IMG/VR virus record: IMGVR_UViG_3300049893_001704
Coordinates: 1-23,102 of that record
Reading direction: 5' to 3' (one strand)
Source of the DNA: a virus
DNA: 23,102 nt
In this document: positions 2,711 to 22,776 of the stretch, piece after piece
Numbering within the stretch: position 1 is the stretch's first letter
How the letters are laid out: the number at the start of each line of letters is the position of its first letter
Position numbers and translations under genes: made by a program
The notes under the pieces: model-generated
Seen by the model: only the letters and a program-made list of their open reading frames with translations
Database searches by the model: none
Told to the model about the DNA's origin: nothing

Positions 2711-5106
2711 ACTTGACGCCTTCCATTGACCGCCACACTCGTTGGTCGGTCTGCTTGGATTGTCCGATTATTCCCCTCATCAGCCACCGCTACCCCCCTA
2801 CCCCCTTCGATGCTCACCACCGCATTGCGCTCGACTGCCGCCGTCCTATCAATTGGCGCCGCTAGCACGGCGATGATTTCAGGATTGGTGATGGTCGCTT
2901 GTACGCTAGATGGCAGTGGGGTAATCGTCGAATCCCCCGCAATAGAAATCTCAGGATCCGTGACGGTTGCCTGAACGGTTACCCAAACAGGCGTTACAAC
3001 CTGGCTCCCTAGCGTGATGAGTGCATCGGTCACAGTGGCTTGCACGGGCGCAAAATCAGGGCTGACGATCTGACTGCCCTGGGCGATGATCGGCTCGGTA
3101 ATGGTCGCTTGTGCGAGCGCGAAGACTGGGCTGACCGCCTGATTACCCTGGGCAGTGGTCGCATCAGTGACCGTCGCTTGCATTATGGCAGGCGCGGGTG
3201 TTACCGTCACATTCCCTGCTCCCACCTCAATCGTCGGATCAGTAACAGTGGCTTGCACGGTTGAGGCTGCTGGGGTAATTGTCTGATTACCTGCTACCGT
3301 CGAGGCGTCGGTAACGCTGGCTTGCACGGCGGCGATTGCGGGCGTAATAGTGACGTTGCCCTGTGCCGTTGTCGGGTTTGTAACCGTTGCCTGAACAGAA
3401 GCCGTCGCTGGCGTAGCACTCTGACTGCCTTGTACTGTGCTGGCATCCGTAATCCCTGCTTGCACGTTTGCCGTGCTAGGGGTTACGGACTGACTACCCT
3501 GGACGGTAGAGGCATTGGTAAGACTGGCTTGGGTCGAGGATGCGCTGGGGGTAATCGTCTGACTACCCTGTGCCGTTGTCGCATCCGTAACCGTTGCCTG
3601 GACATTCGCTGGGTTCGGTGTAACGACCTTATCCCCACTAGTATCTATCGTGGGATCAGTAATCGTCGCCTGCGTCGTGGCTGCGCTGGGCGTTAGGGTT
3701 TGATTACCCGCCGCTGTTGTGGCGTCTGTGATCGTTGCTTGGGTGTTTGCCGTCGCTGGCGTTTTGGTTTGCGAACCTTGGGCAACTGTCGGATTAGTGA
3801 CCGTCGCTTGTACAGTGGCGGGCGTGGGTGTCTTGGTCTGACTGCCGAGCGCGATGGTCGGATTAGTGACCGTCGCCTGTGAGGTGGCTACCGCCGGGGT
3901 CTTGGTCAGACTCCCCAGAGCAATGGTGGCATTGGTGACCGTCGCTTGTGAGGTGGCAACCGCTGGCGTAACAGTGACATTACTCGCCGCCTGGCATACC
4001 ACCTCAAACATCAGGGCTTGCCAGTAGGGGTCTGGGGCGGCGTCAGTGCTGTACCCAAATCGCATCTTCAGGGCGTCAACAATGCTGGTAGACCATCCCC
4101 CGCCAGGGTCAGTCATTTTTGCCATTCGATACTGGCTAGCCGTTTCGGACATGTCCACTGGTGTTGACGAAGTACCGAAAATGCTAACCTCACTGCCGTT
4201 CACAATGGCTATGGTCGAACCTGTATTAGCAGCCGTGCCAGCAGAGTTATAATGAACATAACCCCAGACCGCCTTGACCGTGCCTGGTGAGGCTGGTAAG
4301 TTTTCAAACTGGACTTCGGCATAATTCCCAGACCCATTGCCAGTTTGTTGCACGCGGTCAGCCGTGCTTGTCCAGTCGGTTTCATCCAGCTTGTCGTAAG
4401 CGGTTACGGTGGTTCCATTGATGTCCGAGCCGTCGCTCAATTCCATGATATTGGCGGCGTTGTTGTGTGTGCCATCCGCGTTAGGACGCAGACCAAAGAT
4501 TTTGTATTCGCCAAGCGGATAATCGCCGCTGACATCCGTACAGATAAAATCTTCAAAATAGGTTTCGGTATTCGTTGTTGTGTTGTTATCGTTGCCGAGC
4601 CGCGCGGCTGTAATAGTATCGGCAGCTTGGGCAAAGGAATGTCCTGTTTGGTCAGTGCCGTCGATTTTCCAGGCAATTGTATTCGGATTAGCCGAAACAT
4701 CTATTTTAAGATCGATCCGATACCACGTTCCTGTTGTCATGGCATTGGCGGATACAGCGGGCGTTCCCCCCGAACCAAACTCTACCTCCAGCTTGTTGGT
4801 AGAACCATTGATCCGTAGGCGCGGTGCTGACGTACTTGTTCCTAACACATTTCTGAAAAGATGAGTTGACGCTGTTGGCAGAATGCCAAAACGAACATAG
4901 AACGATGTCACTACAACAGTGGAAGTGGTAATCGTTTTCTGAATATGCTCGACCGCTGAAGCCGATGTGATATTCAGGACATACGATCCTGAGCCGCTAC
5001 GGGTAGGCGTGTTTGAAATGGCAGGGGAACCCGTGACGTTATTCCACACGTTCCCCGCCGTACTTAGTACCCCGTACTCAAAACCCGTAGCGAATAGGAT
5101 GGTCAT
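2707..5106 (-). CDS. LamG-like virion protein with a long Thr/Pro repeat stalk
   Basis: Predicted protein of 799 aa. Residues 1-190 look like a concanavalin/LamG-type beta sandwich (ATGFEYG start, RSGSGSYVL, YVRFGILP, WYRIDLKIDV, YFEDF). Residues 195-375 form a second beta-rich domain. Residues 380-744 are sixteen tandem units of 23-25 aa with consensus TPxxAxxQATVTDxTxxQGxQT. The final 55 residues form a separate C-terminal tail rich in Val and Arg. The architecture (binding-like head, long Thr/Ser/Pro stalk, anchor) suggests a fibre or surface adhesin. It lies between glycosyltransferases and connector genes; the Thr/Ser-rich stalk is a plausible glycan acceptor. No chaperone or peptidase domain is seen. 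Confidence 0.82.
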   Translation of the reverse strand: MTILFATGFEYGVLSTAGNVWNNVTGSPAISNTPTRSGSGSYVLNITSASAVEHIQKTITTSTVVVTSFYVRFGILPTASTHLFRNVLGTSTSAPRLRINGSTNKLEVEFGSGGTPAVSANAMTTGTWYRIDLKIDVSANPNTIAWKIDGTDQTGHSFAQAADTITAARLGNDNNTTTNTETYFEDFICTDVSGDYPLGEYKIFGLRPNADGTHNNAANIMELSDGSDINGTTVTAYDKLDETDWTSTADRVQQTGNGSGNYAEVQFENLPASPGTVKAVWGYVHYNSAGTAANTGSTIAIVNGSEVSIFGTSSTPVDMSETASQYRMAKMTDPGGGWSTSIVDALKMRFGYSTDAAPDPYWQALMFEVVCQAASNVTVTPAVATSQATVTNATIALGSLTKTPAVATSQATVTNPTIALGSQTKTPTPATVQATVTNPTVAQGSQTKTPATANTQATITDATTAAGNQTLTPSAATTQATITDPTIDTSGDKVVTPNPANVQATVTDATTAQGSQTITPSASSTQASLTNASTVQGSQSVTPSTANVQAGITDASTVQGSQSATPATASVQATVTNPTTAQGNVTITPAIAAVQASVTDASTVAGNQTITPAASTVQATVTDPTIEVGAGNVTVTPAPAIMQATVTDATTAQGNQAVSPVFALAQATITEPIIAQGSQIVSPDFAPVQATVTDALITLGSQVVTPVWVTVQATVTDPEISIAGDSTITPLPSSVQATITNPEIIAVLAAPIDRTAAVERNAVVSIEGGRGVAVADEGNNRTIQADRPTSVAVNGRRQV
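2875..3969 (-). repeat. Coding minisatellite, about 69-bp unit, sixteen copies
   Basis: The DNA encodes sixteen in-frame units of 23-25 codons; three units carry one or two extra codons, the last is partial. The first two units are nearly identical, the others diverged, with CAAGCGACGGTC-like (Q-A-T-V) cores most constant. The gradient from similar to diverged units suggests recent duplication at the 3969 end. Copy number could vary by slippage or recombination. Confidence 0.85.
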
Positions 5107-6458: not shown

Positions 6459-7361
6459 TTACTCCTGATTAATGATTTCCTGTAAAATCGCTACCAGCTT
6501 GGGAGCGTCCAATGGCTCCCCTATCATCCGCTTCCGCCATGTCTCAAAGACATGACCATCACCTAGGCTGAATGCCTGTTCTATCAGACCCGCCATATCG
6601 CCCGCCCCGGCGTCCAGGGGGAACGCCAAGTCATCACAATACTGTTCCCAGTGATCCGGCAGTCTTGGATATTCATCGTCTAAGCTGGTCATAAATCCCA
6701 CTGTTGGCACTCCCTTAGCTAGGCTCATATACGCATACGTGCCAGATGCCACCACCACGTCTACCGTGTCAATGTCGGCGGTTGATCCGTCATACCGCCC
6801 GGCACGGTAGGTAATACCCGGCTCAATGGTTAGGTGATTTTGTTCCAATGTCCCCAGATACCGAACGGACAATTCAATATCATCCATTGTCCGTAGCAAC
6901 TCCCAGACAAACCCATTCCAGTACCGTTCCAATTTGCCGAGCAGCCCATGACCATCAGGATGGATAGGCGCAAATAGCACCCGCCGTCCGCTGGGCTGGC
7001 GCATAGGTCTAACCTCCGACAGAAACCATCCGCACACATAGATAGGCTTGGGATAGCCATACTTAAGCATGATGTCCCGATGTCCCTCGGCAGGCACAAG
7101 TACCGCGTCCGTTTTGGCGTAAGGCTCATACAGACCATCCCAAACCACATTCGGGTTTGCCCCGTGTGGGTAGATGACGATCTTTGCCCCGCGTTCTTTG
7201 TGCCAGTCGATGATCTGGCGATAGTCGTAAACGGGGAAATCGGTATCAATAAGCAGCACATCGGCGGCAAATCTTTCATCACTGCATTCTACGCCTTGCG
7301 ATTCCAGCGCAGCCCACAATGGCGCAGCTTTGTTTTGGTGGTTCCTCATGGCAACGCGCAT
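6459..7361 (-). CDS. GT-B fold glycosyltransferase-like protein
   Basis: Predicted protein of 300 aa. The pattern resembles CDP-glycerol transferase or UDP-sugar GT-B enzymes: IVIYPHGANPNVVWDGLY, AVLVPAEGHRDIMLKYG, RRVLFAPIHPDG opening the second half, and VVVASGTYAYMSLAKGVPTVGF as the nucleotide-binding-type segment. No signal peptide or membrane helix is evident. It starts in a TAATG overlap with the trifunctional gene and AGGTGA upstream, so the two are co-translated and probably act in one pathway. Donor and acceptor cannot be read from the sequence. Confidence 0.78.
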   Translation of the reverse strand: MRVAMRNHQNKAAPLWAALESQGVECSDERFAADVLLIDTDFPVYDYRQIIDWHKERGAKIVIYPHGANPNVVWDGLYEPYAKTDAVLVPAEGHRDIMLKYGYPKPIYVCGWFLSEVRPMRQPSGRRVLFAPIHPDGHGLLGKLERYWNGFVWELLRTMDDIELSVRYLGTLEQNHLTIEPGITYRAGRYDGSTADIDTVDVVVASGTYAYMSLAKGVPTVGFMTSLDDEYPRLPDHWEQYCDDLAFPLDAGAGDMAGLIEQAFSLGDGHVFETWRKRMIGEPLDAPKLVAILQEIINQE

Positions 7362-9991
7362 TAGTCACCTATTGGACAAATGCCTAAGCGGGTATCAGGG
7401 ACATAAACCCGCGCTTGTTCAATCAACTCTTGTGGGCTGGCTACGGACTGCAAACGCGCATTGGTATGCACTTCCCCACGAATATGCTCCACACGGGAAA
7501 GCACTTCCCCCGCATTCATCAAGATTTCGTATTCCGCGCCTTCACAATCCAGCTTCAGGAGTTTGCAGCGTTCAATCTGGTGATTGTCGAAAATGTCAGC
7601 CAAGGTGACCGATTCCACCTGATAGCGATTCCCGCCGTTTGGTGTGGTAAAGGCAGACATGCCACCGCTGTTGATGTCCATATGCCCCGTCAAGGTCAAG
7701 GGGCGGCGGTCACTGGTCACTGCCCGGTTAATCGCGATGACATTGGTAATGCCGTTTGCTTGGATGTTTTTGAGCAATCGCTGGTAACTGTCTGGTACAG
7801 GCTCATAGGCGTAAATCTTCGCGCTGGGGTATTTCTTGGCAAGCCATATGCTTACTACCCCCACTTGCGCTCCGATGTCGATAACCACCTCACCCTCAGC
7901 CAATTCCGGCAAGCTGTAGCTATACTTGACCTCATGCAGTACGATCTTGGCAACCCCGCCCTGCGGATCATCTTCAAACACCAGCCCGTCCGCAAAGGCA
8001 AAGCCTGACGGATCAATCACATGCCGTCCGTTTGGCTGTTGTCGTAGACCAGCCACACACTGAGGATCACGGCATGGGATAAGCAAATCACCCTGGTGAT
8101 ATACCCCGATATGCGCCCAATCATGGCGGTGCTTGCTTTGCAATCCCAAAGCGGTCATGATGGTCTGTTCAAATCGGGCGCGATTGTCTGCGATTGCATC
8201 ATACGCGCCGGGGGCATGGCTGGACGTGGTACGCCCCCCGTTTAGGTGGACAATCCCCCAAGGACGCTCTACCAATGACATACCCTGACGTACCGCACGC
8301 CAGCATAGATCGTTATCTTCGTAGTAGCTACCCTGGTAATTTTTGGCATCCCACCCCCCTAATTCCTGGAAAGTAGACCGCAATCCAGCCAGACAGTAGC
8401 CATCAATATAGCCAATGCCGATGTCACCTACCGTGCGTATCTTCTTGGTGGGACCCACCAGCATGTTTTCCTGTACGTCATTCTTGACCATGCGCAGCCA
8501 TTCGGGGCGGCTGGCGGCGATGTCATTGTTCATAAACACCACAATATCGCCCCGCGCCCGACTGAGTCCTAGGTTATTGGAGGCGGAAAAACCCATGTTC
8601 TCAGCATTGCGGATATACACCCCGCCCAAGCGTTCTACCATCGCCAAGATGAGCGCGGCATTTTCCGGTGTACTGGCATTGTCGATAATGATAACTTGGT
8701 CTGCTTCATGCACAGCCGATTCATACAGCGGGATTAATTCGGGATGGTCTCGCCAGGGGGTAATCACGGAGATCGTGCGCGGCTTGCCCTCAATTGTCAG
8801 CGGTTCGTCTATGGCGGTCTCTGCCAACACCCGTGCTTCCATTTGCTCAAAAGCCGGTTTCCAGTATTTTTCAACCACCATATCCGCGTCATAGTCTGCC
8901 AACATTCCGGCGCGGGCTTGCTGCCCAAAGTCCAGATTACCACGCTGGGCATATGCCGCTTCCAGCTTATCTACCATATCCTCAACAGACGGCAGGAAGT
9001 AGTAGCTGCCTTGTGGCGAATAGAACTTGTCAATGGCTTCTACCGTCCAGCCCGCCCTAACCAATTCCGGCATGGCGGTGTAATTGCCCACAATTACCGG
9101 AGTACCACAAGCTTGTGCCTCAATAATCGGCACACCAAAGCCCTCGCCCATTGTGCAATTCAACAGGACATCCGCCGCGTTGTATAGCAATCGCATGTAG
9201 CGGTTATCCAGCAAGCCAGCCCGTAGCCGCCCTTGGTCACTGATGGCAATGGCTTGTGGCGGGATGTTGTGGAAGCTGATAACTTGCTGGAGGTCTACCC
9301 CGTCACTGCCCACCATATCGGTATGCAGTCCCAGCATAGCATCCGGGTGATGGCTGTAGAATTCGGCAAACGCTCGGATTTGTGGTTCAAACGCTTTTCG
9401 CGGCGGGCTGCTGCCTTTATTAGCCGCTACGATTTGCACCACGTAACGATCCAGCGGAATGCCCAACAGTTCCTTGGCTTTGGCTCGATCCATCGGTTGG
9501 AATTGTTCGCAGTCTACGCCGTGCGGCACATACAGCGGTTTCAATCCAGCTTTGACCATCTGGTCATATCCAAAACGAGCATAAGCCATCGGTTGCCAAG
9601 CCAGTGATAATGCCTTGGCAACAGGCAGGGGAATGGGATCATGGTCTACCGGAGCATAAGCCACCCAGCGCATGGTTTTCATGGTTTCTGCAATTTCCAA
9701 GAAAATCCAGGCGTCAATCAGGGTCAGCAAAAAGTCTGCGCCACTATGACGATAATCCCATCCGATTCTGTCCAGTGCATAGGAATGTAACGAGCTGGGC
9801 GGATAAATGAACACCTCATCCATCGTGATTGGCGATCCTTGATTACCATAGAACGCCGTCATGCAGAATGAGCGTTCTTTCATCTTCGCCCAGCGTGGGA
9901 TGAAAGTACGCATCTGTACCCCGTAACCCGTCCCCGCTTCGGGACTGTTACTGTACAGATGGTACTTGGGTATGGGATTACGGAATGACAT
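7361..9991 (-). CDS. Trifunctional glycosyltransferase: GT4, GT2 and FkbM methyltransferase
   Basis: Predicted protein of 876 aa with three enzyme domains. Residues 1-380 form a GT-B fold, GT4-type glycosyltransferase with the EX7E pair Glu283/Glu291 in EGFGVPIIEAQACGTP. Residues 405-615 form a GT-A fold, GT2-type transferase (VIIIDNAST, NMGFSASNN, FMNND and the acidic YYEDNDLCWRA). Residues 665-875 resemble an FkbM-type methyltransferase (VIDIGAQVGVVSIWLAKK, YAYEPVPDS, LLKLDCEGAEYEIL). Together these could build and cap, by O-methylation, a short glycan. The ATG at 9991 has GGGGA upstream and lies within the capsid gene end; an earlier in-frame start is less likely. Its stop overlaps the next gene by one base. 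Cell-surface glycan modification is an alternative to virion glycosylation. Confidence 0.9.
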   Translation of the reverse strand: MSFRNPIPKYHLYSNSPEAGTGYGVQMRTFIPRWAKMKERSFCMTAFYGNQGSPITMDEVFIYPPSSLHSYALDRIGWDYRHSGADFLLTLIDAWIFLEIAETMKTMRWVAYAPVDHDPIPLPVAKALSLAWQPMAYARFGYDQMVKAGLKPLYVPHGVDCEQFQPMDRAKAKELLGIPLDRYVVQIVAANKGSSPPRKAFEPQIRAFAEFYSHHPDAMLGLHTDMVGSDGVDLQQVISFHNIPPQAIAISDQGRLRAGLLDNRYMRLLYNAADVLLNCTMGEGFGVPIIEAQACGTPVIVGNYTAMPELVRAGWTVEAIDKFYSPQGSYYFLPSVEDMVDKLEAAYAQRGNLDFGQQARAGMLADYDADMVVEKYWKPAFEQMEARVLAETAIDEPLTIEGKPRTISVITPWRDHPELIPLYESAVHEADQVIIIDNASTPENAALILAMVERLGGVYIRNAENMGFSASNNLGLSRARGDIVVFMNNDIAASRPEWLRMVKNDVQENMLVGPTKKIRTVGDIGIGYIDGYCLAGLRSTFQELGGWDAKNYQGSYYEDNDLCWRAVRQGMSLVERPWGIVHLNGGRTTSSHAPGAYDAIADNRARFEQTIMTALGLQSKHRHDWAHIGVYHQGDLLIPCRDPQCVAGLRQQPNGRHVIDPSGFAFADGLVFEDDPQGGVAKIVLHEVKYSYSLPELAEGEVVIDIGAQVGVVSIWLAKKYPSAKIYAYEPVPDSYQRLLKNIQANGITNVIAINRAVTSDRRPLTLTGHMDINSGGMSAFTTPNGGNRYQVESVTLADIFDNHQIERCKLLKLDCEGAEYEILMNAGEVLSRVEHIRGEVHTNARLQSVASPQELIEQARVYVPDTRLGICPIGD

Positions 9992-10835
9992 CAGTCCCCA
10001 GCAAAATGTGACCCGTCGCAGGCCGCCAAGCACCCTCACCGAACCACACATTCAACACCGCATCCCAAGCCGCATTCAAGGCTTCGCGCTGGAATTCAAT
10101 CGCCATACCGCCGCCGCGCTGGTCGTAGGCTTGTGCTGAACGGGCATACATCGCCGCCGTGCCAGCCGTGCCACCAGAGTTAGCAATGTTGTCAGTCACG
10201 ATAAAAGTGACATCACCCATAATTGGCGAAACGAAGAAATCGCGTACCATACGGTCTTGGAATTCAGGAGCGTATTGGAAAGCACCGCTGGTATTGTTCA
10301 ACTGGGTGTAGAGGTGGTAGAACTGTCCATGACCAAGCACGCAGTACAACGGGCCGCCAACATTGGCTTGCCGCAATTTCGACTTAGCAGCCACGATATT
10401 ATTCCAGGTCAAAGTAGACCCGGCAGTACCAGTAGTGCCGCCCGTATAGGCTGCGAAGTTGGCAGTCAAAAGCTGGTCGATGTAATTGGACATCGACAAA
10501 CCCATTTCGATCCCCAAGCTGACGCGGGCATTATCATCGTCGCTGAAAATACGTTCGTCACTTACCCGCACGGCGATACCATGTCGTCCGGGGGTGATAG
10601 TCGATAGCAAGGTCTTGTCGAAAACCTGCGAAGTCAGAGCCGCGCCCTCTGCTACCGATTCCGGTGCTAGGGCGGGGTAAGTAGAGACCTTGCGAAGATT
10701 AAGCCCTAACTCATCACCAAAAAAGGTGACGGTCGGCAAAACCATCGGAGCCTCGCGCAGCGTCATTAACGCCGCTTCGTAAATGACAGGAGAGACAGCA
10801 CTAATGCCACTCCATAATGCTGATCCAGCAGTCAT
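9978..10835 (-). CDS. Major capsid protein (HK97 fold)
   Basis: Predicted protein of 285 aa. It follows the scaffold gene with a three-base gap and has AGGA eight bases upstream. The N-terminal arm, an E-loop-like beta segment (residues 30-60), a spine helix (NARVSLGIEMGLSMSNYIDQLL) and beta-rich C-terminal half fit HK97-fold coats that use a separate scaffold. The sequence is rich in Gly/Thr/Ala, with Gly-Thr-rich loops (GGTTGTAGST near residue 132, and SGGTAGTAAM near 227) that are plausible exposed surfaces. Its end overlaps the glycosyltransferase gene by 14 bases, so the capsid message also drives that enzyme's translation. Confidence 0.9.
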   Translation of the reverse strand: MTAGSALWSGISAVSPVIYEAALMTLREAPMVLPTVTFFGDELGLNLRKVSTYPALAPESVAEGAALTSQVFDKTLLSTITPGRHGIAVRVSDERIFSDDDNARVSLGIEMGLSMSNYIDQLLTANFAAYTGGTTGTAGSTLTWNNIVAAKSKLRQANVGGPLYCVLGHGQFYHLYTQLNNTSGAFQYAPEFQDRMVRDFFVSPIMGDVTFIVTDNIANSGGTAGTAAMYARSAQAYDQRGGGMAIEFQREALNAAWDAVLNVWFGEGAWRPATGHILLGTDVIP

Positions 10836-10838
10836 GTT

Positions 10839-11483
10839 TTAATCCTTGTCTGTGCTATGAATGACAACACCCGCCCCGCCAATGGCTTTTCCTGGACCGC
10901 CCCTGACTTGCTCGCGTACCATGCTTTTAACACGCTCACTCACGTCAGACTGTCCAGTGATCCCTGATGGGTTATGGTCTGGTAATGCGGGGGCAGATGA
11001 GGTAGAGCGCAGCAAGTGCGGCTTGGCTTTTGCCAGTTCCGTAATCGCCACGTCTACCCCCTCCGCTTTGCCATCCGTATATCCGATTTTGTTTCGGTCA
11101 ACCAAAGCCCACGCTTCCGACGGGTCAACAAAGCCAGCCTTAGCAGCCACCGCAATCACCGCAGCTTCTAGCCGTGCGTTTTGCAGTTCACGATCACGGG
11201 CAGTCAGGGCTTCCTCTCGCTGACGTGCGAGTTGTTCCCATTCACCCTTGGCTGCTAATTCCTCTTGCTGGCGTTTCGTTTCCTTATCTTCAAACTCCCG
11301 TAGCTTGACCCGTAACGCTGCCGCTTCTTGATTCGCCTCTTGTTTTTGGCGATAAGCCTCGGCGGGATTATCGAGTACCCACTGGGGAACATTCGTAGCC
11401 TGTTGACCCTGTGCAGGGGTAGCTCCCGGCGTTCCCTGTATTTCATTCGGTTTGCCCTCCTGGGGCATTTGTTCGTCTGTCAT
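10839..11483 (-). CDS. Capsid scaffolding protein
   Basis: Predicted protein of 214 aa. A Pro/Gln/Gly-rich N-terminus is followed by a long, highly charged coiled coil at residues about 40-105 (repeated Glu/Lys/Gln/Arg with heptad-spaced Leu/Ala). A smaller globular part follows, and the C-terminus is basic and Gly-rich. This composition and the place directly before the major capsid gene are typical of phage scaffolds of the GP20 kind, which template procapsid assembly and then leave. The start at 11483 has a good AGGAG six bases upstream. No protease motif is visible, so scaffold removal probably relies on exit or another enzyme. Confidence 0.85.
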   Translation of the reverse strand: MTDEQMPQEGKPNEIQGTPGATPAQGQQATNVPQWVLDNPAEAYRQKQEANQEAAALRVKLREFEDKETKRQQEELAAKGEWEQLARQREEALTARDRELQNARLEAAVIAVAAKAGFVDPSEAWALVDRNKIGYTDGKAEGVDVAITELAKAKPHLLRSTSSAPALPDHNPSGITGQSDVSERVKSMVREQVRGGPGKAIGGAGVVIHSTDKD

Positions 11484-11531
11484 TTAGTCTCCTGGACTCT
11501 ATGTTTTGACTTTGCAAAAACTTAAGTAAAC

Positions 11532-11554
11532 AAAAAGGGGGCGTGAACCCCCTT
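11532..11554 (-). terminator. Intrinsic terminator between head morphogenesis and scaffold genes
   Basis: On the minus strand AAGGGGG (11548-11554) pairs with CCCCCTT (11535-11541) around a six-base loop; the Ts continue to 11532. The five G-C pairs plus T-run give a good intrinsic terminator. It sits 27 bases past the minor-head stop and about 50 bases before the scaffold gene. No clear promoter follows it, so scaffold and capsid expression would require read-through or antitermination. Confidence 0.8.
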
Positions 11555-11580
11555 GTGTTCTTCGGAACCTATCAAGAAAT

Positions 11581-12300
11581 CTATTTGAATTCCAATTCAC
11601 AGCGGCAGTTACTGAGGCACTGGCTACCATCCCCCGGCACGGGGAACGTTCCAATCGGCTGCCAGCCTTGCGCCGCAAATCCTAGACAATCCCCGCAATG
11701 TTCTGCCGGGTTCAGGATGCGCCGTTCCAATCTACGACTGCCATCCGAGATATACCGTTCTCGCCGCTGGTCGTAGTAGTTGCGCCTGACGTGGTTTGCA
11801 TACATCCTCAAATGTGCATTGGTCAGCGCGGGTGATTGCCCTGCTCGGATACGGTCAAACAACCCGCGTAGGTATTCCATTTCGGACTCCATAAATCGGC
11901 TCAAAGCATCTTGATCCAAGCTATCAAATCCGCCCGCGCCCAAGCTGCCCGCCGTCACATGCGCCCGCATCAATTCCACAAGCATCGCCGCCTCAAATTG
12001 CTCCAAGCTGATAATGCCATCGTTATACCGTTGATTGAGGCTTTGGAACAAACTCCCCTGTTCGCTGGCTAATTCATCCAGGCTGGACAGTTCGTTGCTT
12101 GTACCTAGCACTTGCCCGTTGCGTTGCCATCCCCCCGATTGCACATTCCACACCCACAACCCCAGCAAGATTGCACCAATCATCCAATTCCGGTTTTCGT
12201 TGGTGCTTTCCGCGTCGGCAACATCCTCATCCGTGACTTCCTCGAATTCAAGGAACAAGTCATCTTCGGTGTCGGTGTCAGGCGGTGGGAGCAGGCTCAT
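11581..12300 (-). CDS. Minor head protein (Mu gpF / SPP1 gp7-like)
   Basis: Predicted protein of 239 aa. An acidic N-terminal tail (residues 1-35) is followed by a helical body. The C-terminal block carries the family's cysteine pattern: ILNPAEHCGDCLGFAAQGW, then PVPGDGSQCLSNCRCEL. These four-plus cysteines resemble the C-terminal motif of phage head morphogenesis proteins that bind the portal and are packaged in few copies. A hydrophobic stretch near residues 40-52 (MIGAILLGLWVW) could be a buried helix or membrane-active segment. It overlaps the portal end by 23 bases and is followed by an intrinsic terminator. The ribosome binding site is weak, so coupling to the portal is likely. Confidence 0.85.
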   Translation of the reverse strand: MSLLPPPDTDTEDDLFLEFEEVTDEDVADAESTNENRNWMIGAILLGLWVWNVQSGGWQRNGQVLGTSNELSSLDELASEQGSLFQSLNQRYNDGIISLEQFEAAMLVELMRAHVTAGSLGAGGFDSLDQDALSRFMESEMEYLRGLFDRIRAGQSPALTNAHLRMYANHVRRNYYDQRRERYISDGSRRLERRILNPAEHCGDCLGFAAQGWQPIGTFPVPGDGSQCLSNCRCELEFK

Positions 12301-13846
12301 TTACCGCTTGTCCATTCGGGCTTTTCTCAAATGCCAGGGCTTGGTCAGCTTGCTGTTGCAATTGCAAACGGCGGCTGCCGACGATCTCACGCCGTTGTTT
12401 CATACCCTGCCGTTTCTTTTCCTCATCCGGGTCATACCCGCGTCTTTCCAGGGCGGTTTCTTGGCTGACACCGAATACCTCAACATCGGTACGCAGCGCG
12501 GTAGATTCTTCCACCGGGTCATTCGGCAGTACATCCGGCGGCACGACCTTGACCTGAATATCCCTGCCTTTGCCCGCCACTTCTAACGCCGCCGCGCATA
12601 CCCGTTGCAGCCCCTCACCCGCTGTCATCCACTTGGTTTGACGTTTGGCGAGCACATCCTGATACATCACCCGCAGCCCAAAGTTGGTCAGGTCTCCGAG
12701 TTTGTCGGCTACCGTTGCCGGGTCTACTTCTTTCGCCGCGTTGAAGAAGTGCCGCTGGATGAATTGCATTAACGCAAACGAACCCGCGCCGTCACTCTGC
12801 AATTCCAGATTGTACATTTTGGCTTGGGGATCATCGAATTCCAAGACAGTGCTGGGTGTGATGTCTACCGTCTCATTGCCTTCCCCGTCTGTTTTGCGGG
12901 GTAGACTCCCCCCGGTAACTACCGTTCGCGGCATAGCGTGGTTTTTCTGGATACGCTGCATGGTCGAAACCGTGACGTTCAGCGCGTCGTTCATCTGCCA
13001 GAGCGTCCCTACATCGTCCAGTCCGTAATACCCGCCGATGCTTGGAACGGGGATGTTTTGCCAGTCGATAATCGGCGCGAAACTAAACCCCCATTTCTTG
13101 GGTGCTTCAGATCGTTCCCACTTTGAGCCTTTACGGGTGTAGGTGTAGATCATCCAAGTTGAATCGCTCACCTTGACGTAATCCGTTCGTTTGCCCCGGT
13201 AATCATCCCCGATGTCTACCCGATACCATAACACGTTCTGGACATCATCCTCTTGCCAAAACGGGGTACACAACGCCGGATTAAGGTTAACCAATCGGGG
13301 GAGGCTCTTGCTGCCCGTGTCAGGATCAATCAATTGGTTTGGGTTAATCTGGATGAATACATGCCCACCTAGGGCAGCATTCAGGAATACGCCATGTAGA
13401 AATGAATTTTTGTGGTTTGCCCGCCAAAAACGATCCATCCAATCTTGCAGATCGTCGGTCTGTTTGGGCTTGGCTCCATTCCGGCGGGGAAGGGCTGGGA
13501 GTGGTGCTTGTAAAGGGGTTTCGGCTGTTGGGCTTTTGAGGGAGAGAGCATCTTGCACTTCGCTTTCTGGGATCAGGAACCGTATCCCTTCCACGCCGCC
13601 TGTATCATCCACCCCCAGCATATTTGCTACGGCTTTATCAATAATCAAACGTACCAATGGCAATAACACATTATCATTTACCCCCGTGCCGTCGGGCTTT
13701 AGGGGCGCGGTCATCTCACCTTTGTAATAACGCCACTTAAGCTCCAAGTTCTTTGCCCGTGTTTCCCGCTCTTTTTGGGCGGCGTCATTCAATTCGCGGG
13801 CGGCGGCGGCGTTTTGATCCTCAATATATTCAATGGCTGGTGGCAT
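12278..13846 (-). CDS. Portal protein
   Basis: Predicted protein of 522 aa, typical for SPP1 gp6-like portals. Evidence includes the N-terminal helical region, a core with HGVFLNAALGGHVFIQINPN, LVNLNPALCTPFWQEDDV and WYRVDIGDDY, and the later FAPIIDWQNIPVP and YYGLDDV segment with the clamp and long-helix region (LWQMNDALNVTVSTMQRIQKN, broken here for brevity). A Gln-rich C-terminal helix ends the protein. The portal dodecamer forms the DNA channel at one capsid vertex. It lies between terL and a minor head protein, the standard order. A Pro-rich insertion at residues about 104-125 may be a surface loop. Confidence 0.92.
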   Translation of the reverse strand: MPPAIEYIEDQNAAAARELNDAAQKERETRAKNLELKWRYYKGEMTAPLKPDGTGVNDNVLLPLVRLIIDKAVANMLGVDDTGGVEGIRFLIPESEVQDALSLKSPTAETPLQAPLPALPRRNGAKPKQTDDLQDWMDRFWRANHKNSFLHGVFLNAALGGHVFIQINPNQLIDPDTGSKSLPRLVNLNPALCTPFWQEDDVQNVLWYRVDIGDDYRGKRTDYVKVSDSTWMIYTYTRKGSKWERSEAPKKWGFSFAPIIDWQNIPVPSIGGYYGLDDVGTLWQMNDALNVTVSTMQRIQKNHAMPRTVVTGGSLPRKTDGEGNETVDITPSTVLEFDDPQAKMYNLELQSDGAGSFALMQFIQRHFFNAAKEVDPATVADKLGDLTNFGLRVMYQDVLAKRQTKWMTAGEGLQRVCAAALEVAGKGRDIQVKVVPPDVLPNDPVEESTALRTDVEVFGVSQETALERRGYDPDEEKKRQGMKQRREIVGSRRLQLQQQADQALAFEKSPNGQAVNEPAPTA

Positions 13847-15186
13847 TAGTATAGCCTCACTTTGGTGTCGGTTCCCCCTTGGCGGTGGAGCATCAAATCA
13901 GTTAATGCCCACACCAGCGCGTCAACACGGTCAGGGCTTGCTCCCTCACCTGGAACCCATTCACACATTTGATCTTCCAATCGTCCAAAGTACCCTATAT
14001 GGTGGATTTTGCCTTGCTCATACAGGCGCGAAATCGGGTCAGCACGGGTAGCTTTCCCCCGGCTGGCTCTCACCTGTTTAACCCTAACCGTCTGTTGACC
14101 ATCCTCAGCGGCACGAACGATGGTACTCTCTACCATGTCACCGCCGTTATTGACCTCAGCCACCAGGTAATCTGCCTGATGTTTGGCGTACAGGCTTAAG
14201 GCTTGCTTTGCCCATTGCGCCGGACGCCCTCGGAGTGTGCCATCGTCTAGCACGTATCCATGACCATCCTCACCCACGCCAGCCACCACAATCCCCGTCT
14301 CATCGCTCTCTTCATTGGCAGTTACCGCCGGGTCAATTGCCACTACCACCCGCTTTAGGCGTGGGGCTTGGCTTTTGCGGTGGGCTTCAATCATTTCCCG
14401 TGTCCACAACGCCGCTGGGTTATCCCCTAGGATTTCAGCGTATAACTCTTGCTGCCCTAGGCGCGTCCCCTCATACTGGCGTTCAATGTCGGTAATGAAA
14501 TCATCTGCCAAGTTAGCACGGTTCTCGTAGGTGCTGCCCTTGGTTAATCGGACATCTGGCTTATCGCCCTGCGACCGTGCTACCAGTCTCTTGATAATCG
14601 GTGTGGGTTTGGGCGTGGTGGTGATGACAATTTGCGGCTTGGTTCCCAAACGGCAACCCAGTACCAACATGTCAAACGATTCAGGGTATCGCCATGCTGC
14701 CAACTCATCCAGCCATAATCGCGCCGATTGCAATCCGCGCAACCGTTCCGGGTTATCTGCCGAGCGCGTCCACACTGTTACCCCGTTTGGAAAAACCAGC
14801 CGTTGTTTGCTGGGCTGATACTCTGGGCGAAAGTCTGGTGGTGCTACGCTCAATATCCCGCTAACCCCTTCTACCATCACGTCACGAACATCCGCCGCAA
14901 TCGGAGCCACAATACCCATTGGCGTGATCCCCCGTTTAGCGGCTGCGATAATGTCCTCCGCCCCCGTTCGTGTCTTTCCCCATCCTCGTCCAGCCAAAAT
15001 AAGCCAGATACGCCATAATCCATCTGGGGTGAGCTGGTCAGGTCTTGCCCAAAACGACCAGTCGTAATACATCCCTGCATACTGGCTATTGGACAGATCT
15101 CTGAGTAGATTCTCTCTGTCCTCCAGCGGTAGCAAGGCGAGAGAGGCGGCTGTTAATTTCTTCTCGATAATCACGGACTTCAACAT
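13846..15186 (-). CDS. Terminase large subunit (ATPase and nuclease)
   Basis: Predicted protein of 446 aa, normal for phage terminases. The ATPase has Walker A AGRGWGKT at 65-72 and Walker B LWLDE at 157-161, with a coupling-type TTTP segment at 189-192. The C-terminal RuvC-like nuclease shows VAIDPA with Asp285, VAEVNN with Glu344, and PDRVDAL with Asp422, the expected acidic metal ligands. The enzyme pumps DNA through the portal and cuts concatemers. All key residues appear intact. Its stop overlaps the portal start by one base (TAATG). The packaging strategy (cos or pac) cannot be decided from this sequence alone. Confidence 0.95.
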   Translation of the reverse strand: MLKSVIIEKKLTAASLALLPLEDRENLLRDLSNSQYAGMYYDWSFWARPDQLTPDGLWRIWLILAGRGWGKTRTGAEDIIAAAKRGITPMGIVAPIAADVRDVMVEGVSGILSVAPPDFRPEYQPSKQRLVFPNGVTVWTRSADNPERLRGLQSARLWLDELAAWRYPESFDMLVLGCRLGTKPQIVITTTPKPTPIIKRLVARSQGDKPDVRLTKGSTYENRANLADDFITDIERQYEGTRLGQQELYAEILGDNPAALWTREMIEAHRKSQAPRLKRVVVAIDPAVTANEESDETGIVVAGVGEDGHGYVLDDGTLRGRPAQWAKQALSLYAKHQADYLVAEVNNGGDMVESTIVRAAEDGQQTVRVKQVRASRGKATRADPISRLYEQGKIHHIGYFGRLEDQMCEWVPGEGASPDRVDALVWALTDLMLHRQGGTDTKVRLY

Positions 15187-15670
15187 TTACCTGGACATCG
15201 GGTTCCTGTAACCCCAGCAACTTGATACGCTGCTCAATACACTTTTGAATGATGCTCAAAAAACGGGGATCCCCTGCTTGGGTTGTTTCTTGGGTTTCAC
15301 GTTTGGCTTGGTTACGAGATTCGGAACGTTCAATCATCACTATAACGGGATTCAAGGAACGCTCATAACTATCCCAAGCTGCTCGCTCCACTTGGTCAAT
15401 GCGCTCTAATTCCCGTCGCTTGGCTTCATTCAGATCAACAATAGCAGACTCGCGCCATTGTTTTTGGATAGCCTTAAGATCAGTGCTCACTGTACCCTGA
15501 TTCACGCCCACTATCTGCGCAATCTCAGATTGTGTCTTTTGATGCAGGTATAATTCAGCCACTTTAACGCGGCGTTCTGCAACGTGCAGGGCTATTATTT
15601 TCTTATGTGGCACTGTTGTTATCGGCTTACGCCGCCTTCCCTCGTACCCGCCGCTGCGCTTCTCGCACAT
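15086..15670 (-). CDS. Terminase small subunit
   Basis: Predicted protein of 194 aa. A basic N-terminus leads into a helix-turn-helix at residues about 30-70 (VAELYLHQKTQSEIAQIVGVNQGTVSTDLKAIQKQW), then long charged helices for oligomerisation, and a C-terminal tail. Terminase small subunits bind the packaging site and regulate the large subunit; assignment rests on the helix-turn-helix and the gene directly downstream being terminase large, with a 101-base overlap. The start at 15670 overlaps the previous gene and has GGTGA about nine bases upstream. A GTG at 15613 would give a shorter protein but lacks a site. Confidence 0.8.
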   Translation of the reverse strand: MCEKRSGGYEGRRRKPITTVPHKKIIALHVAERRVKVAELYLHQKTQSEIAQIVGVNQGTVSTDLKAIQKQWRESAIVDLNEAKRRELERIDQVERAAWDSYERSLNPVIVMIERSESRNQAKRETQETTQAGDPRFLSIIQKCIEQRIKLLGLQEPDVQVNVEVRDYREEINSRLSRLATAGGQRESTQRSVQ

Positions 15671-16070
15671 GCTGGTCAGTCACCCCCGGATTATCCCGTT
15701 CATCGCTAACGATCTCGGCAATGCGGCGGGGTTTGTCGGTGGCTGCTTTGCCCTTCCCCGGATGGATGTAACTCAAAAACGTCTGGGAATACATGCGCTC
15801 CATAATCCAGATCACGCATTTTTCAAAGTGGGATTTGTGGTCATGCAGGGATTTCTCAGGGCGGGGTTGCCAGGCTAGCAGCCGTTCACGGCGTTCCAAT
15901 TCGCGGACGTATTCGCGTTGCAAATTGGCATATACGGTGTCATCGGCGTCATTCACAGGCAGACCCATCATATGCAGGGCATACATGGCATAGCCTACTT
16001 CAATCCATAGCGGAATCGGTGGAGCCTGCCACGTTTCCAAGTGTTTTGGGGCAGAGAGGATATAGGTCAT
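15627..16070 (-). CDS. Hypothetical protein, first gene of the late operon
   Basis: Predicted protein of 147 aa, not recognised. It has an N-terminal hydrophobic/helical region (residues 15-40, IPLWIEVGYAMYALHMMGL), a charged helix (LQREYVRELERRERLLAW), and a basic C-terminus ending in VREAQRRVRGKAA. The ATG at 16070 is preceded only by a weak GGAAA. It overlaps the terminase small subunit gene by 44 bases. Position just before terS suggests a packaging or DNA-processing accessory, but no HNH or other nuclease motif is visible. Confidence 0.7.
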   Translation of the reverse strand: MTYILSAPKHLETWQAPPIPLWIEVGYAMYALHMMGLPVNDADDTVYANLQREYVRELERRERLLAWQPRPEKSLHDHKSHFEKCVIWIMERMYSQTFLSYIHPGKGKAATDKPRRIAEIVSDERDNPGVTDQHVREAQRRVRGKAA

Positions 16071-16112
16071 GGTTTCCAGGGATGCTAATTAATTTTTGGG
16101 GTAGTTATTCGG

Positions 16113-16134
16113 AAAACGCCTGCCTACACAGGCG
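16113..16134 (-). terminator. Intrinsic terminator immediately after the late promoter
   Basis: On the minus strand CGCCTG (16129-16134) pairs with CAGGCG (16117-16122) around a six-base loop, followed by TTTT (16113-16116). The stem is short but GC-rich; the T-tract is only four bases, so efficiency may be moderate. It begins roughly 25 nt after the predicted start of the promoter at 16165-16192, so an unmodified polymerase would release an RNA of about 45 nt. Position upstream of every structural gene suggests a regulated terminator. Confidence 0.72.
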
Positions 16135-16164
16135 AAAGGGAGTTGACTGACTACTTCACTTATC

Positions 16165-16192
16165 AGTATACACCCGTTCTATTAGGTGTCAA
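16165..16192 (-). promoter_or_regulatory. Strong sigma70-type promoter for the structural operon
   Basis: On the minus strand a perfect TTGACA -35 box (16187-16192), a 16-base spacer and a TATACT -10 box (16165-16170, five of six consensus) point into the packaging and structural genes. Transcription should start near 16158. It lies in the widest intergenic gap of the window, between early and late modules. The flanking direct repeat and palindrome suggest regulation. Confidence 0.82.
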
Positions 16193-16194
16193 TA

Positions 16195-16214
16195 CTTATC
16201 CCAACTTATCCCAA
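16195..16214 (-). repeat. Perfect tandem 10-bp repeat upstream of the late promoter
   Basis: On the minus strand TTGGGATAAG occurs twice in immediate succession (16205-16214 and 16195-16204), ending two bases before the TTGACA -35 box. One helical turn per repeat places both copies on the same DNA face, as for an activator or regulator bound next to polymerase. A third partial copy, GATAAGT, lies at 16158-16164 between the -10 box and the predicted transcription start. Confidence 0.7.
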
Positions 16215-16217
16215 GTT

Positions 16218-16234
16218 TTATAACAAAGTTATAA
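16218..16234. repeat. Perfect AT-rich palindrome upstream of the late promoter
   Basis: TTATAAC-AAA-GTTATAA is a perfect 7-bp inverted repeat with a three-base centre. It sits two bases past the stop of the zinc-finger gene and about 26 bp upstream of the -35 box of the promoter at 16165-16192. The AT-rich stem without a T-run makes a poor terminator, so a dimeric protein binding site is more likely. Confidence 0.55.
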
Positions 16235-16236
16235 CC

Positions 16237-16863
16237 TTACTGTTCTTTTGCTGCCCATGCCCCCGTGCCATTGTGTAATGCCCATAAGGAACGACGCAGG
16301 TTTTCAGAACTACGGGCTGCCCCGCTTTGATCTACCTTCACCTCGATCTCGATGTCCAAGTCAGGCGGGGCGGAAAACACCCTATCCGCCCCCTGGATGG
16401 GTTTGGCATTGCCGTCGCTGGGCTGCTTATCAGGCGTCATGGTTGCCGTTACTGTCTGCTGCTCTTGTTCCTTGCGCAAGAGCAGATCGGATAAAAAATC
16501 CAGCTTATCCAAGACCCTCTCGAATTTTGCATCAGTTTCGGCTTGTCTGGCTTGGGTTTCTTGCAGCGTTGCTTTTATTCCTGCCACTTCACCGGACAAA
16601 CTATCTATGGCAGTCCACAAGGCATCAGAAACGTTGCTTAACTCACCATCACGTATCTTTTGCCCCATGCGCTCGATTCCGCGCAATCTAGCCTGCTTGC
16701 ACGAGGTTCCACACGTCACTGCATGGGGTTTCCGGTGGCTGATGTTGGCATCACACATCTGGCAGACCCGGTACTGTTTTACGCAGGCAGTACAGTGAAT
16801 GCCGTAGGGGATGTCTACGCCACAAATTTTACACTGGTTAAGGTGTTGCCTGTAACCGTTCAT
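16237..16863 (-). CDS. Double zinc-finger, coiled-coil protein; candidate late regulator
   Basis: Predicted protein of 208 aa. Residues 11-55 hold eight cysteines in four pairs (C11/C14, C24/C27, C34/C37, C51/C55), consistent with two zinc-binding modules. A basic stretch follows (KQARLRGIERMGQKIR). Residues about 75-140 are Glu/Gln/Ala/Leu-rich, a probable coiled coil. The C-terminal third is polar, with an acidic block near residue 175. No family is recognised. The gene is the last before the control region at 16113-16234 with its late-type promoter and immediate terminator. In lambdoid phages the zinc-containing antiterminator Q occupies this place, so a late activator or antiterminator role is proposed by position and fold type only. 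Confidence 0.68.
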   Translation of the reverse strand: MNGYRQHLNQCKICGVDIPYGIHCTACVKQYRVCQMCDANISHRKPHAVTCGTSCKQARLRGIERMGQKIRDGELSNVSDALWTAIDSLSGEVAGIKATLQETQARQAETDAKFERVLDKLDFLSDLLLRKEQEQQTVTATMTPDKQPSDGNAKPIQGADRVFSAPPDLDIEIEVKVDQSGAARSSENLRRSLWALHNGTGAWAAKEQ

Positions 16864-17294: not shown

Positions 17295-18211
17295 ACCTTC
17301 ACCTCCGTGCATTCACAATCCTTAACCGTGCCGTGATCGTTCACATATCCCCCGCCGCCGCATACCGGACAATCATGCTGGGGTTTTCCCCGCGCCGCTT
17401 TTTGGCTTGTCGGCTTGGTTGTTTGCCCTCCCCAGACCTTGGCTGCATTGATTGTCTCAATAACCTGACTGATACAGGGTGGCGAGCCTCTCTTGCCACG
17501 CCAATCGTCTTGGAACCACCAGCGTTTATGCCTGCGAACATCCTCAGCCGTATAGCCCCCCCTTGCCAGCGTGATAGCCGCTTTGGTCAGCTTGGTTTCG
17601 TTATTCCCCTCAACTACATATTCCCGCAGGGCTGTGATGATAGCATCCCCCGGTTTCTGCTTATCGTGACCTGTTTCGCCAGCTTGGATGTCTGTTGTCA
17701 CGCGGGGCGGGGGCGGCGTTCTCTCCTCCTCTTCTCTCTGATTCTCTATAGTGTCCGATATTGCGGCATCTTGTGTACGACTTTCGGACACAAAGCCGTC
17801 ATTTGTGTCCGACTCTCTGACACTCGGATCGTTTGTGTCCGATTTTGCGATACTCACTTGGATGGATTTTAGTTTACTGATTGCGGACACGATCAGGTGA
17901 ATATTGAACGGTTTCCGGCGGGCATCTCTGGCAACTTCTACCAATCCCAGTTTTACCAATGCATCAATTACCCGGCTGATGGTATCCAAGCTCCAAAAAC
18001 CCAAACATCTTGTTTTCATTGAACGCATAGACATGATAAGCCAGTATTTGCCATCCTCATCCAAGCGAATTTCGTTAGGCTTGGCATGATTAATCCAATA
18101 ATCCAATTGCAAAAGCATGATGCTTTCGTTCAGTCCGATCTCTTCTGCCAGCGGTGCAAACACCCGGATTTGTGCCCCGGCGTTTGCCAGCATAATTTTG
18201 GGAATACTCAT
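17291..18211 (-). CDS. Winged-helix replication initiator or helicase loader
   Basis: Predicted protein of 306 aa. Residues about 15-115 look like the winged-helix domain of phage replication proteins (EEIGLNESIMLLQLDYWI, then FWSLDTISRVIDALVKLGLVE), the DNA-binding part. Residues 120-190 are a polar linker encoded by iteron-like DNA. Residues 200-265 form a helical domain. The C-terminus has a small zinc knuckle, CPVCGGGGY plus CEC. It lies directly after dnaB with an ATGA overlap, as O/P-like or DnaD-like initiators and loaders do. The likely role is origin recognition and helicase recruitment; initiator and loader cannot be separated from sequence alone. Confidence 0.8.
   Translation of the reverse strand: MSIPKIMLANAGAQIRVFAPLAEEIGLNESIMLLQLDYWINHAKPNEIRLDEDGKYWLIMSMRSMKTRCLGFWSLDTISRVIDALVKLGLVEVARDARRKPFNIHLIVSAISKLKSIQVSIAKSDTNDPSVRESDTNDGFVSESRTQDAAISDTIENQREEEERTPPPPRVTTDIQAGETGHDKQKPGDAIITALREYVVEGNNETKLTKAAITLARGGYTAEDVRRHKRWWFQDDWRGKRGSPPCISQVIETINAAKVWGGQTTKPTSQKAARGKPQHDCPVCGGGGYVNDHGTVKDCECTEVKV
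17751..17890. repeat. Iteron-like repeats inside the replication gene; candidate origin
   Basis: The 8-mer GTGTCCGA occurs four times: at 17751-17758, 17805-17812 and 17835-17842 on the plus strand, and inverted at 17784-17791. One-mismatch relatives lie at 17773-17780 (GTGTACGA) and, inverted, at 17883-17890 (GCGGACAC). The copies at 17802 and 17832 extend to TTTGTGTCCGA. Several spacings are near 11 or 21-22 bp, i.e. on one helix face. Because the copies occur in both orientations and encode different peptides, selection appears to act on DNA. Origins embedded in the initiator gene are known in lambdoid phages. No clear DnaA box is seen. Confidence 0.6.
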
Positions 18212-20869: not shown

Positions 20870-20897
20870 AAAAAAGCCCCGCCACTTTGGACGGGGC
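20870..20897 (-). terminator. Intrinsic terminator after recT
   Basis: On the minus strand GCCCCG (20892-20897) pairs with CGGGGC (20876-20881). A further inner CCA/TGG pairing closes a three-base loop, and six Ts follow directly (20870-20875). The stem is GC-rich and the U-tract intact, so this is a strong Rho-independent terminator candidate. It lies six bases past the recT stop. The GGGAGG ribosome binding site of the next gene abuts the U-tract, so downstream early genes need read-through, antitermination or another promoter. Confidence 0.85.
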
Positions 20898-22692: not shown

Positions 22693-22763
22693 TGGTCTTG
22701 GGCAGGTGTGTGACCTGAACCAAGATTTTTTTTATTGCTTATCCTGATTCTAGCCCAAGACCA
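22693..22763. repeat. Nested inverted repeats over promoter spacer and leader
   Basis: An 11-bp perfect inverted repeat has arms TGGTCTTGGGC at 22693-22703 and GCCCAAGACCA at 22753-22763, separated by 49 bp. The distal arm lies in the promoter spacer; the proximal arm lies in the transcribed leader. Within the leader, the proximal region also forms a hairpin: CTTGG/CCAAG (22697-22701 with 22720-22724) enclosing CAGGT/ACCTG (22703-22707 with 22713-22717) around a five-base loop. No U-run follows, so it is not an intrinsic terminator. Likely roles are operator half-sites for a looping repressor, or a leader RNA structure. The repeats are seen directly; the role is inferred. Confidence 0.6.
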
Positions 22764-22776
22764 TTTTTTTTGTCAA
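22747..22776 (-). promoter_or_regulatory. Sigma70-type promoter for the recT/replication operon
   Basis: On the minus strand a perfect -35 box TTGACA (22771-22776) is followed by an 18-base spacer and a TAGAAT -10 box (22747-22752, five of six consensus bases). Transcription should begin near 22740, giving a leader of about 77 bases before the ATG at 22663. An A-run follows the -35 box. One arm of an 11-bp inverted repeat lies inside the spacer, so a repressor bound there would block polymerase directly. It lies in one of the few intergenic gaps, as expected for a true promoter. Confidence 0.75.

Follow-up and report, generated by a model that had tools for sequence, protein, structure and literature searches.

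A putative regulated late promoter with an adjoining tandem decamer in an orphan phage genome

The largest gap in the window analyzed here (the whole virus record IMGVR_UViG_3300049893_001704, 23,102 bases) spans 166 bp and holds a predicted sigma-70 type promoter, designated P_L, together with a perfect tandem decamer. The sequence gives good support to the view that P_L is a late promoter aimed at the structural genes and adjoined by a regulatory repeat, and on present evidence the block is most likely an ordinary regulated sigma-70 late promoter. We assign roughly even chances to a fuller reading, in which P_L would serve the late operon, a protein bound at the tandem decamer would control initiation, and a hairpin in the leader would act as a leaky attenuator or 5′-end stabilizer at most. 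Should the decamer prove to be a late-gene operator, it would open timing control to experiment in an orphan phage with regulators unlike any known.

The P_L promoter and its genomic setting

All likely genes in the window lie on the minus strand. Read from right to left, the Pfam and PHROGs assignments give a RecT-like annealing protein, an MT-A70 methyltransferase, a DnaB helicase and a DnaD-like replication initiator, after which come unnamed open reading frames (ORFs) of 123 and 208 aa, the gap with P_L, and an unnamed 147-aa ORF (15627–16070), the first gene of the late operon. These are followed, also on the minus strand, by an HTH protein in the TerS position, the large terminase subunit TerL (13846–15186; family searches), an SPP1-type portal that matches the SPP1 Gp6 family, a scaffold protein and the capsid. 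This order of modules places the P_L block where the replication genes give way to the packaging genes. The HTH protein (194 aa, 15086–15670, covered by family searches) is likely the small terminase subunit, as its HTH and its position beside TerL suggest.

P_L itself (16165–16192, minus strand) is composed of the −35 hexamer TTGACA (16192–16187), a 16-nt spacer and the −10 hexamer TATACT (16170–16165), with a predicted +1 at 16157/16158. It matches the consensus at 11 of 12 positions, a score reached by three promoters in the window when both strands are counted, compared with a mean of 0.28 in 200 shuffles. Its hexamers, spaced within the 16–18 range of sigma-70 promoters, lie upstream of the packaging operon. 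A first-pass annotation of this DNA had described a promoter pointing into the structural genes, and both its letters and its coordinates are borne out. A second strong promoter, P_E (TTGACA-N18-TAGAAT, 22747–22776, minus strand), precedes the early genes.

The tandem decamer as a candidate operator

Next to P_L, the decamer TTGGGATAAG occurs twice in perfect tandem (TTGGGATAAGTTGGGATAAG; 16195–16214, minus strand), centered near −47. The pair (16214–16195) ends 2 bp before the −35 hexamer, as had been annotated, and its occurrence exceeds chance: it is the only tandem repeat in the window with a period of 10–14 and a matching run of at least 10, whereas such repeats averaged 0.08, and never exceeded 1, in 60 dinucleotide shuffles. 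A third, partial copy, GATAAGT (16158–16164, minus strand), lies between the −10 hexamer and the predicted start of P_L, and three of the four GATAAGT occurrences in the window belong to the P_L block. The 488 intergenic nt contain four copies of the shorter GATAAG, counted on both strands, where its density in the window predicts 0.40; the count is small and was noticed after looking. Two of these four form the tandem pair, one lies at the P_L start and one at the P_E start, where GGATAAG (22744–22738) stands just past the −10 hexamer; this distribution suggests that a single factor may act on both promoters through GATAAG. The tandem decamer is probably an operator, that is, a site for a control protein. 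Behind the pair lies an AT-rich 7-3-7 palindrome, TTATAACTTTGTTATAA (arms TTATAAC and GTTATAA around TTT; 16218–16234), whose letters were checked and agree with the annotation. By arithmetic, 23 kb should hold about 1.4 such palindromes (23102/4^7), so this one, taken by itself, stands at chance level and is not significant.

The elements themselves, how rare they are and where they lie can be read from the sequence; that P_L is active, that a protein binds there and with what effect, and what the hairpin does are inferred as follows. P_L would drive the packaging and structural operon as a sigma-70 promoter, and a sequence-specific protein of phage or host origin would bind the TTGGGATAAG pair on one helix face beside the −35 hexamer and perhaps also the third GATAAG at the start site. 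The bound protein would switch the late operon on or off at initiation, with the leader hairpin contributing, at most, leaky attenuation or protection of the 5′ end. Because the hexamers are near consensus and GATAAG recurs at the P_E start, we favor repression or timing control rather than obligatory activation. The tandem pair leaves the −35 hexamer uncovered, so that steric repression is not obvious. Mor and C of phage Mu and Ogr of phage P2 are activators that bind just upstream of the −35 position of promoters without a good −35 hexamer. The P_L pair, at about −38 to −57, occupies a similar position, but P_L differs in having TTGACA.

Near-consensus hexamers would also suit a strong promoter with essentially no regulation; its leader hairpin would shield the 5′ end of the mRNA, and the repeats would be incidental. 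P_E also carries a hairpin close to its 5′ end, without a T tract on the coding strand, as this explanation would have it. Yet chance seldom produces such a tandem pair, this one lies right up against the −35 hexamer, and GATAAG recurs at P_E, so that we regard an unregulated promoter as distinctly improbable.

The repeats could also be read as DnaA-box-like elements of a replication origin beside an AT-rich stretch. The DnaA box is TTATCCACA. The sequence TTATCCCAA differs from it at two positions, and AT content reaches 70% at 16200–16239; at the two-mismatch level, however, the window holds 87 matches, and neither a DnaA box with zero or one mismatch nor a cluster of such boxes occurs in 16000–16300. 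The GC skew, computed in 1-kb steps, does not turn at the P_L block. A likelier origin is the set of iteron-like repeats inside the replication initiator gene (17767–17855), which measure 27 nt, are spaced at 30–32 nt and share the core TTTGTGTCCGA; these are probably the origin. An origin at P_L is thus a very remote prospect.

Occurrence of the block elsewhere and a possible packaging site

The exact tandem 20-mer was found in one viral record (L082) and three genome contigs (L083, L084 and L085). It lies inside long ORFs in L084 and L085, and in L083 (Kouleothrix) three copies occupy an apparently intergenic stretch. The unrelated viral contig L082 carries six GGGATAAG copies and two inverted ones within about 210 bp (264–474), again apparently intergenic. 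Looser GGGATAAG pairs occur in 16 viral records, compared with 11 for a permuted control, and hence show no marked numerical enrichment. They lie mostly outside ORFs of at least 80 aa (11 of 16 records, versus 2 of 11 for the permuted control; Fisher p = 0.018), which fits the expectation of a non-coding site. The contexts of these loci differ, and a common regulator was not seen among them. In tblastn searches, the proteins of the window gave no match in L082–L085 and just one weak match, to a glycosyltransferase/methyltransferase in L093, among the wider pair-bearing loci. The intergenic DNA returned only three weak records when compared with phages (E 0.3 to 1), the two Rfam matches both fell far below the gathering score, and a literature search with the decamer motif as plain text retrieved unrelated papers only.

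Relatives of the terminase genes were also inspected; the first-pass annotation had proposed looking for the repeat-promoter-terminator block in related phages. Among the best 80 of at least 598 TerL relatives, the 59 with at least 1200 nt upstream were scanned, and promoters matching at 10 or more of 12 positions were present at 13 of these loci (14 promoters, several loci being near-duplicates). None of the 14 was followed by a hairpin-TTTT within 90 nt or preceded by a tandem repeat. Upstream of two TerS relatives (L101 and L102, 44–45% identity), no promoter with 10 of 12 matches was detected and no tandem repeat was apparent by eye. The block was therefore not recovered in these searches, although all relatives found are too distant to refute its conservation, and the collections searched may not include records nearly identical to that of the window.

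These comparisons bear on another explanation for the repeats, namely that they form part of a pac or cos site recognized by TerS that overlaps the late promoter, transcription control being secondary. In phage SPP1, according to the available text of PMC6316719, pac overlaps the PL1/PL2 late promoters and gene 1, and this overlap makes a TerS site a reasonable rival for the P_L pair, which stands just upstream of the terminase genes of a phage whose portal belongs with SPP1 Gp6. SPP1 resembles the window further in having a late promoter before its packaging genes and late clusters delimited by stem-loops; it differs in that PL1 has an atypical −35, as described in that text, whereas P_L has TTGACA and its TerS site is only putative. 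The arrangement of the pair fits less well. A search for the GGGATAAG motif across the terS region and the 147-aa gene turned up no additional copy, unlike the combination of pacL and pacR in SPP1, and the 147-aa ORF stands between the pair and the TerS-like gene. Together with the two TerS relatives that lack both elements, these differences make a packaging site a rather improbable account of the repeats.

Leader hairpin, internal terminators and antitermination

An intrinsic terminator had been annotated immediately after the P_L start. A hairpin, CGCCTGTGTAGGCAGGCG (16134–16117), followed by TTTT (16116–16113), does occupy this place (16113–16134, minus strand), its 5′ edge lying about 24 nt past the predicted +1 at 16157/8, but as a terminator it is borderline and is best described as a candidate weak terminator or attenuator. 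Its stem of 7 bp and loop of 4 nt give −11.3 kcal/mol, only four T residues follow, and it does not appear in the list from a terminator scan. With a terminator score d of 1.0, it ranks lowest of the seven window candidates with d > 0, a class that averages 1.2 in 20 shuffles. The whole P_L leader folds no better than shuffled sequence (z = −0.99; 31 of 200 shuffles fold at least as well).

Much stronger intrinsic terminators are predicted inside both operons. One, at 11532–11552 (minus strand, d = 30; referred to as 11536), lies in the late operon ahead of the genes for scaffold and capsid, and no promoter with at least 9 of 12 matches occurs around it in 11300–11900. The other, at 20870–20897 (minus strand, d = 26; referred to as 20875), lies in the early operon just after RecT. 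Terminators with d of at least 25 were absent from 20 shuffles. Because these elements sit within operons, some read-through mechanism stays conceivable, and the two together would agree more readily with antitermination than with control exerted solely at initiation. The 20875 hairpin starts six bases past the RecT stop codon, however, and ribosomes ending at RecT could mask it.

The first-pass annotation had gone further and proposed a compact version of the lambda late switch. P_L does share several features with lambda pR′-tR′ with Q and with the phage 21 Q system (PMC6606751), at least as far as the available text describes the latter: a strong late promoter where early and late genes meet, a downstream hairpin, direct repeats nearby and an unassigned gene just upstream. 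For Q, the binding element (QBE) lies between the −35 and −10 hexamers and a −10-like element follows the start (PMC6606751, available text), whereas the P_L repeats are placed upstream of the −35 and its terminator is weak. AlpA of Pseudomonas aeruginosa, whose promoter PalpB is likewise followed by an intrinsic terminator (tB) before the first gene, uses an element (ABE) between the hexamers and needs a sigma-dependent pause, according to the accessible portions of PMC9371919 and PMC7969949. For GafYZ of the Caulobacter gene transfer agent, the accessible text places a putative element (ZBE) in the −35/−10 spacer as well (PMC11150451). Homologues of AlpA and of GafYZ were not seen in the window.

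At P_L, no binding element was recognized between the −35 and −10 hexamers, the tandem repeats (16214–16195) being upstream, and a test for repeated elements found no 5–7 nt direct repeat within −37 to about +8. Nor does +1 to +20, with +1 assumed at 16158, contain a −10-like pause element, defined as a hexamer with A2, T6 and at least three matches. With the repeats upstream of the −35, no pause element, a weak hairpin and no recognizable Q, the proposed lambda-like antitermination switch is not well supported and falls short of the parts that would define it.

The gene in the position that Q holds in lambda encodes a 208-aa orphan protein (16237–16863, minus strand), which was subjected to family searches and structure prediction. 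Its N-terminus is Cys-rich, with CxxC-type clusters, and a long predicted helix is the sole confident part of its model (mean pLDDT 57, predicted without alignment). It matches no Pfam or PHROGs family and no PDB entry better than E 0.4. The 147-aa protein, examined by family and relative searches and by structure prediction, gave a model with a mean pLDDT of 46, also predicted without alignment. Viral contigs yielded no relatives of the 208-aa, 147-aa and capsid proteins, and 50,697 phage records yielded none of the 208-aa and 147-aa proteins. The lack of a family match for the 208-aa protein says little about antitermination, because known antiterminators are not homologous to each other; indeed, as far as the accessible parts of PMC9371919, PMC6606751 and PMC11150451 go, no homology is obvious among 21Q, lambda Q, AlpA and GafZ.

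A genuine processive antitermination system non-homologous to lambda Q therefore has to be weighed. Here, a factor would load at P_L via the repeats or the leader RNA hairpin, and polymerase would be carried through both that hairpin and the internal terminator at 11536. A constitutive-looking P_L with a hairpin-TTTT at about +24, the orphan gene at the Q position, the strong terminators within both operons, the stretch around 11536 without a promoter, and the diversity of known antiterminators all speak for this possibility. Against it stand the placement of the repeats outside the spacer, the first 20 bases without a pause element, and a hairpin with four T residues and the lowest d. We know of no Q-like factor acting on the late clusters of SPP1. 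Those clusters are also delimited by stem-loops (PMC6316719, available text). Weighing the terminators at 11536 and 20875 together with ribosome masking and the SPP1 stem-loops, we consider such a system unlikely while keeping it among the readings of P_L. If antitermination does load from upstream of the −35, it would break the arrangement of the Q, AlpA and GafZ systems. A broader form, in which both operons would be under a new type of antitermination, is more doubtful still: either a factor loaded at the repeats that precede the −35, or RNA hairpins near the 5′ ends of both the P_E and the P_L leaders serving as nut- or put-like elements, would take polymerase across 20875 and 11536.

The P_E region (22776–22663) contains a large 5′-proximal hairpin (22725–22696) that lacks a T tract on the coding strand; a run of eight T residues is present on its plus-strand side only and would terminate rightward transcription. 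A perfect 10-bp inverted repeat, GGTCTTGGGC/GCCCAAGACC, has one arm in the P_E spacer (22762–22753) and the other in the leader hairpin (22703–22694). Farther along the minus strand, between the capsid and tail genes (6459–10051), lie a gene for an 896-aa glycosyltransferase plus FkbM methyltransferase and then a 300-aa ORF, and a 799-aa tail-related gene contains 2.6 copies of a 69-bp tandem repeat (3788–3963).
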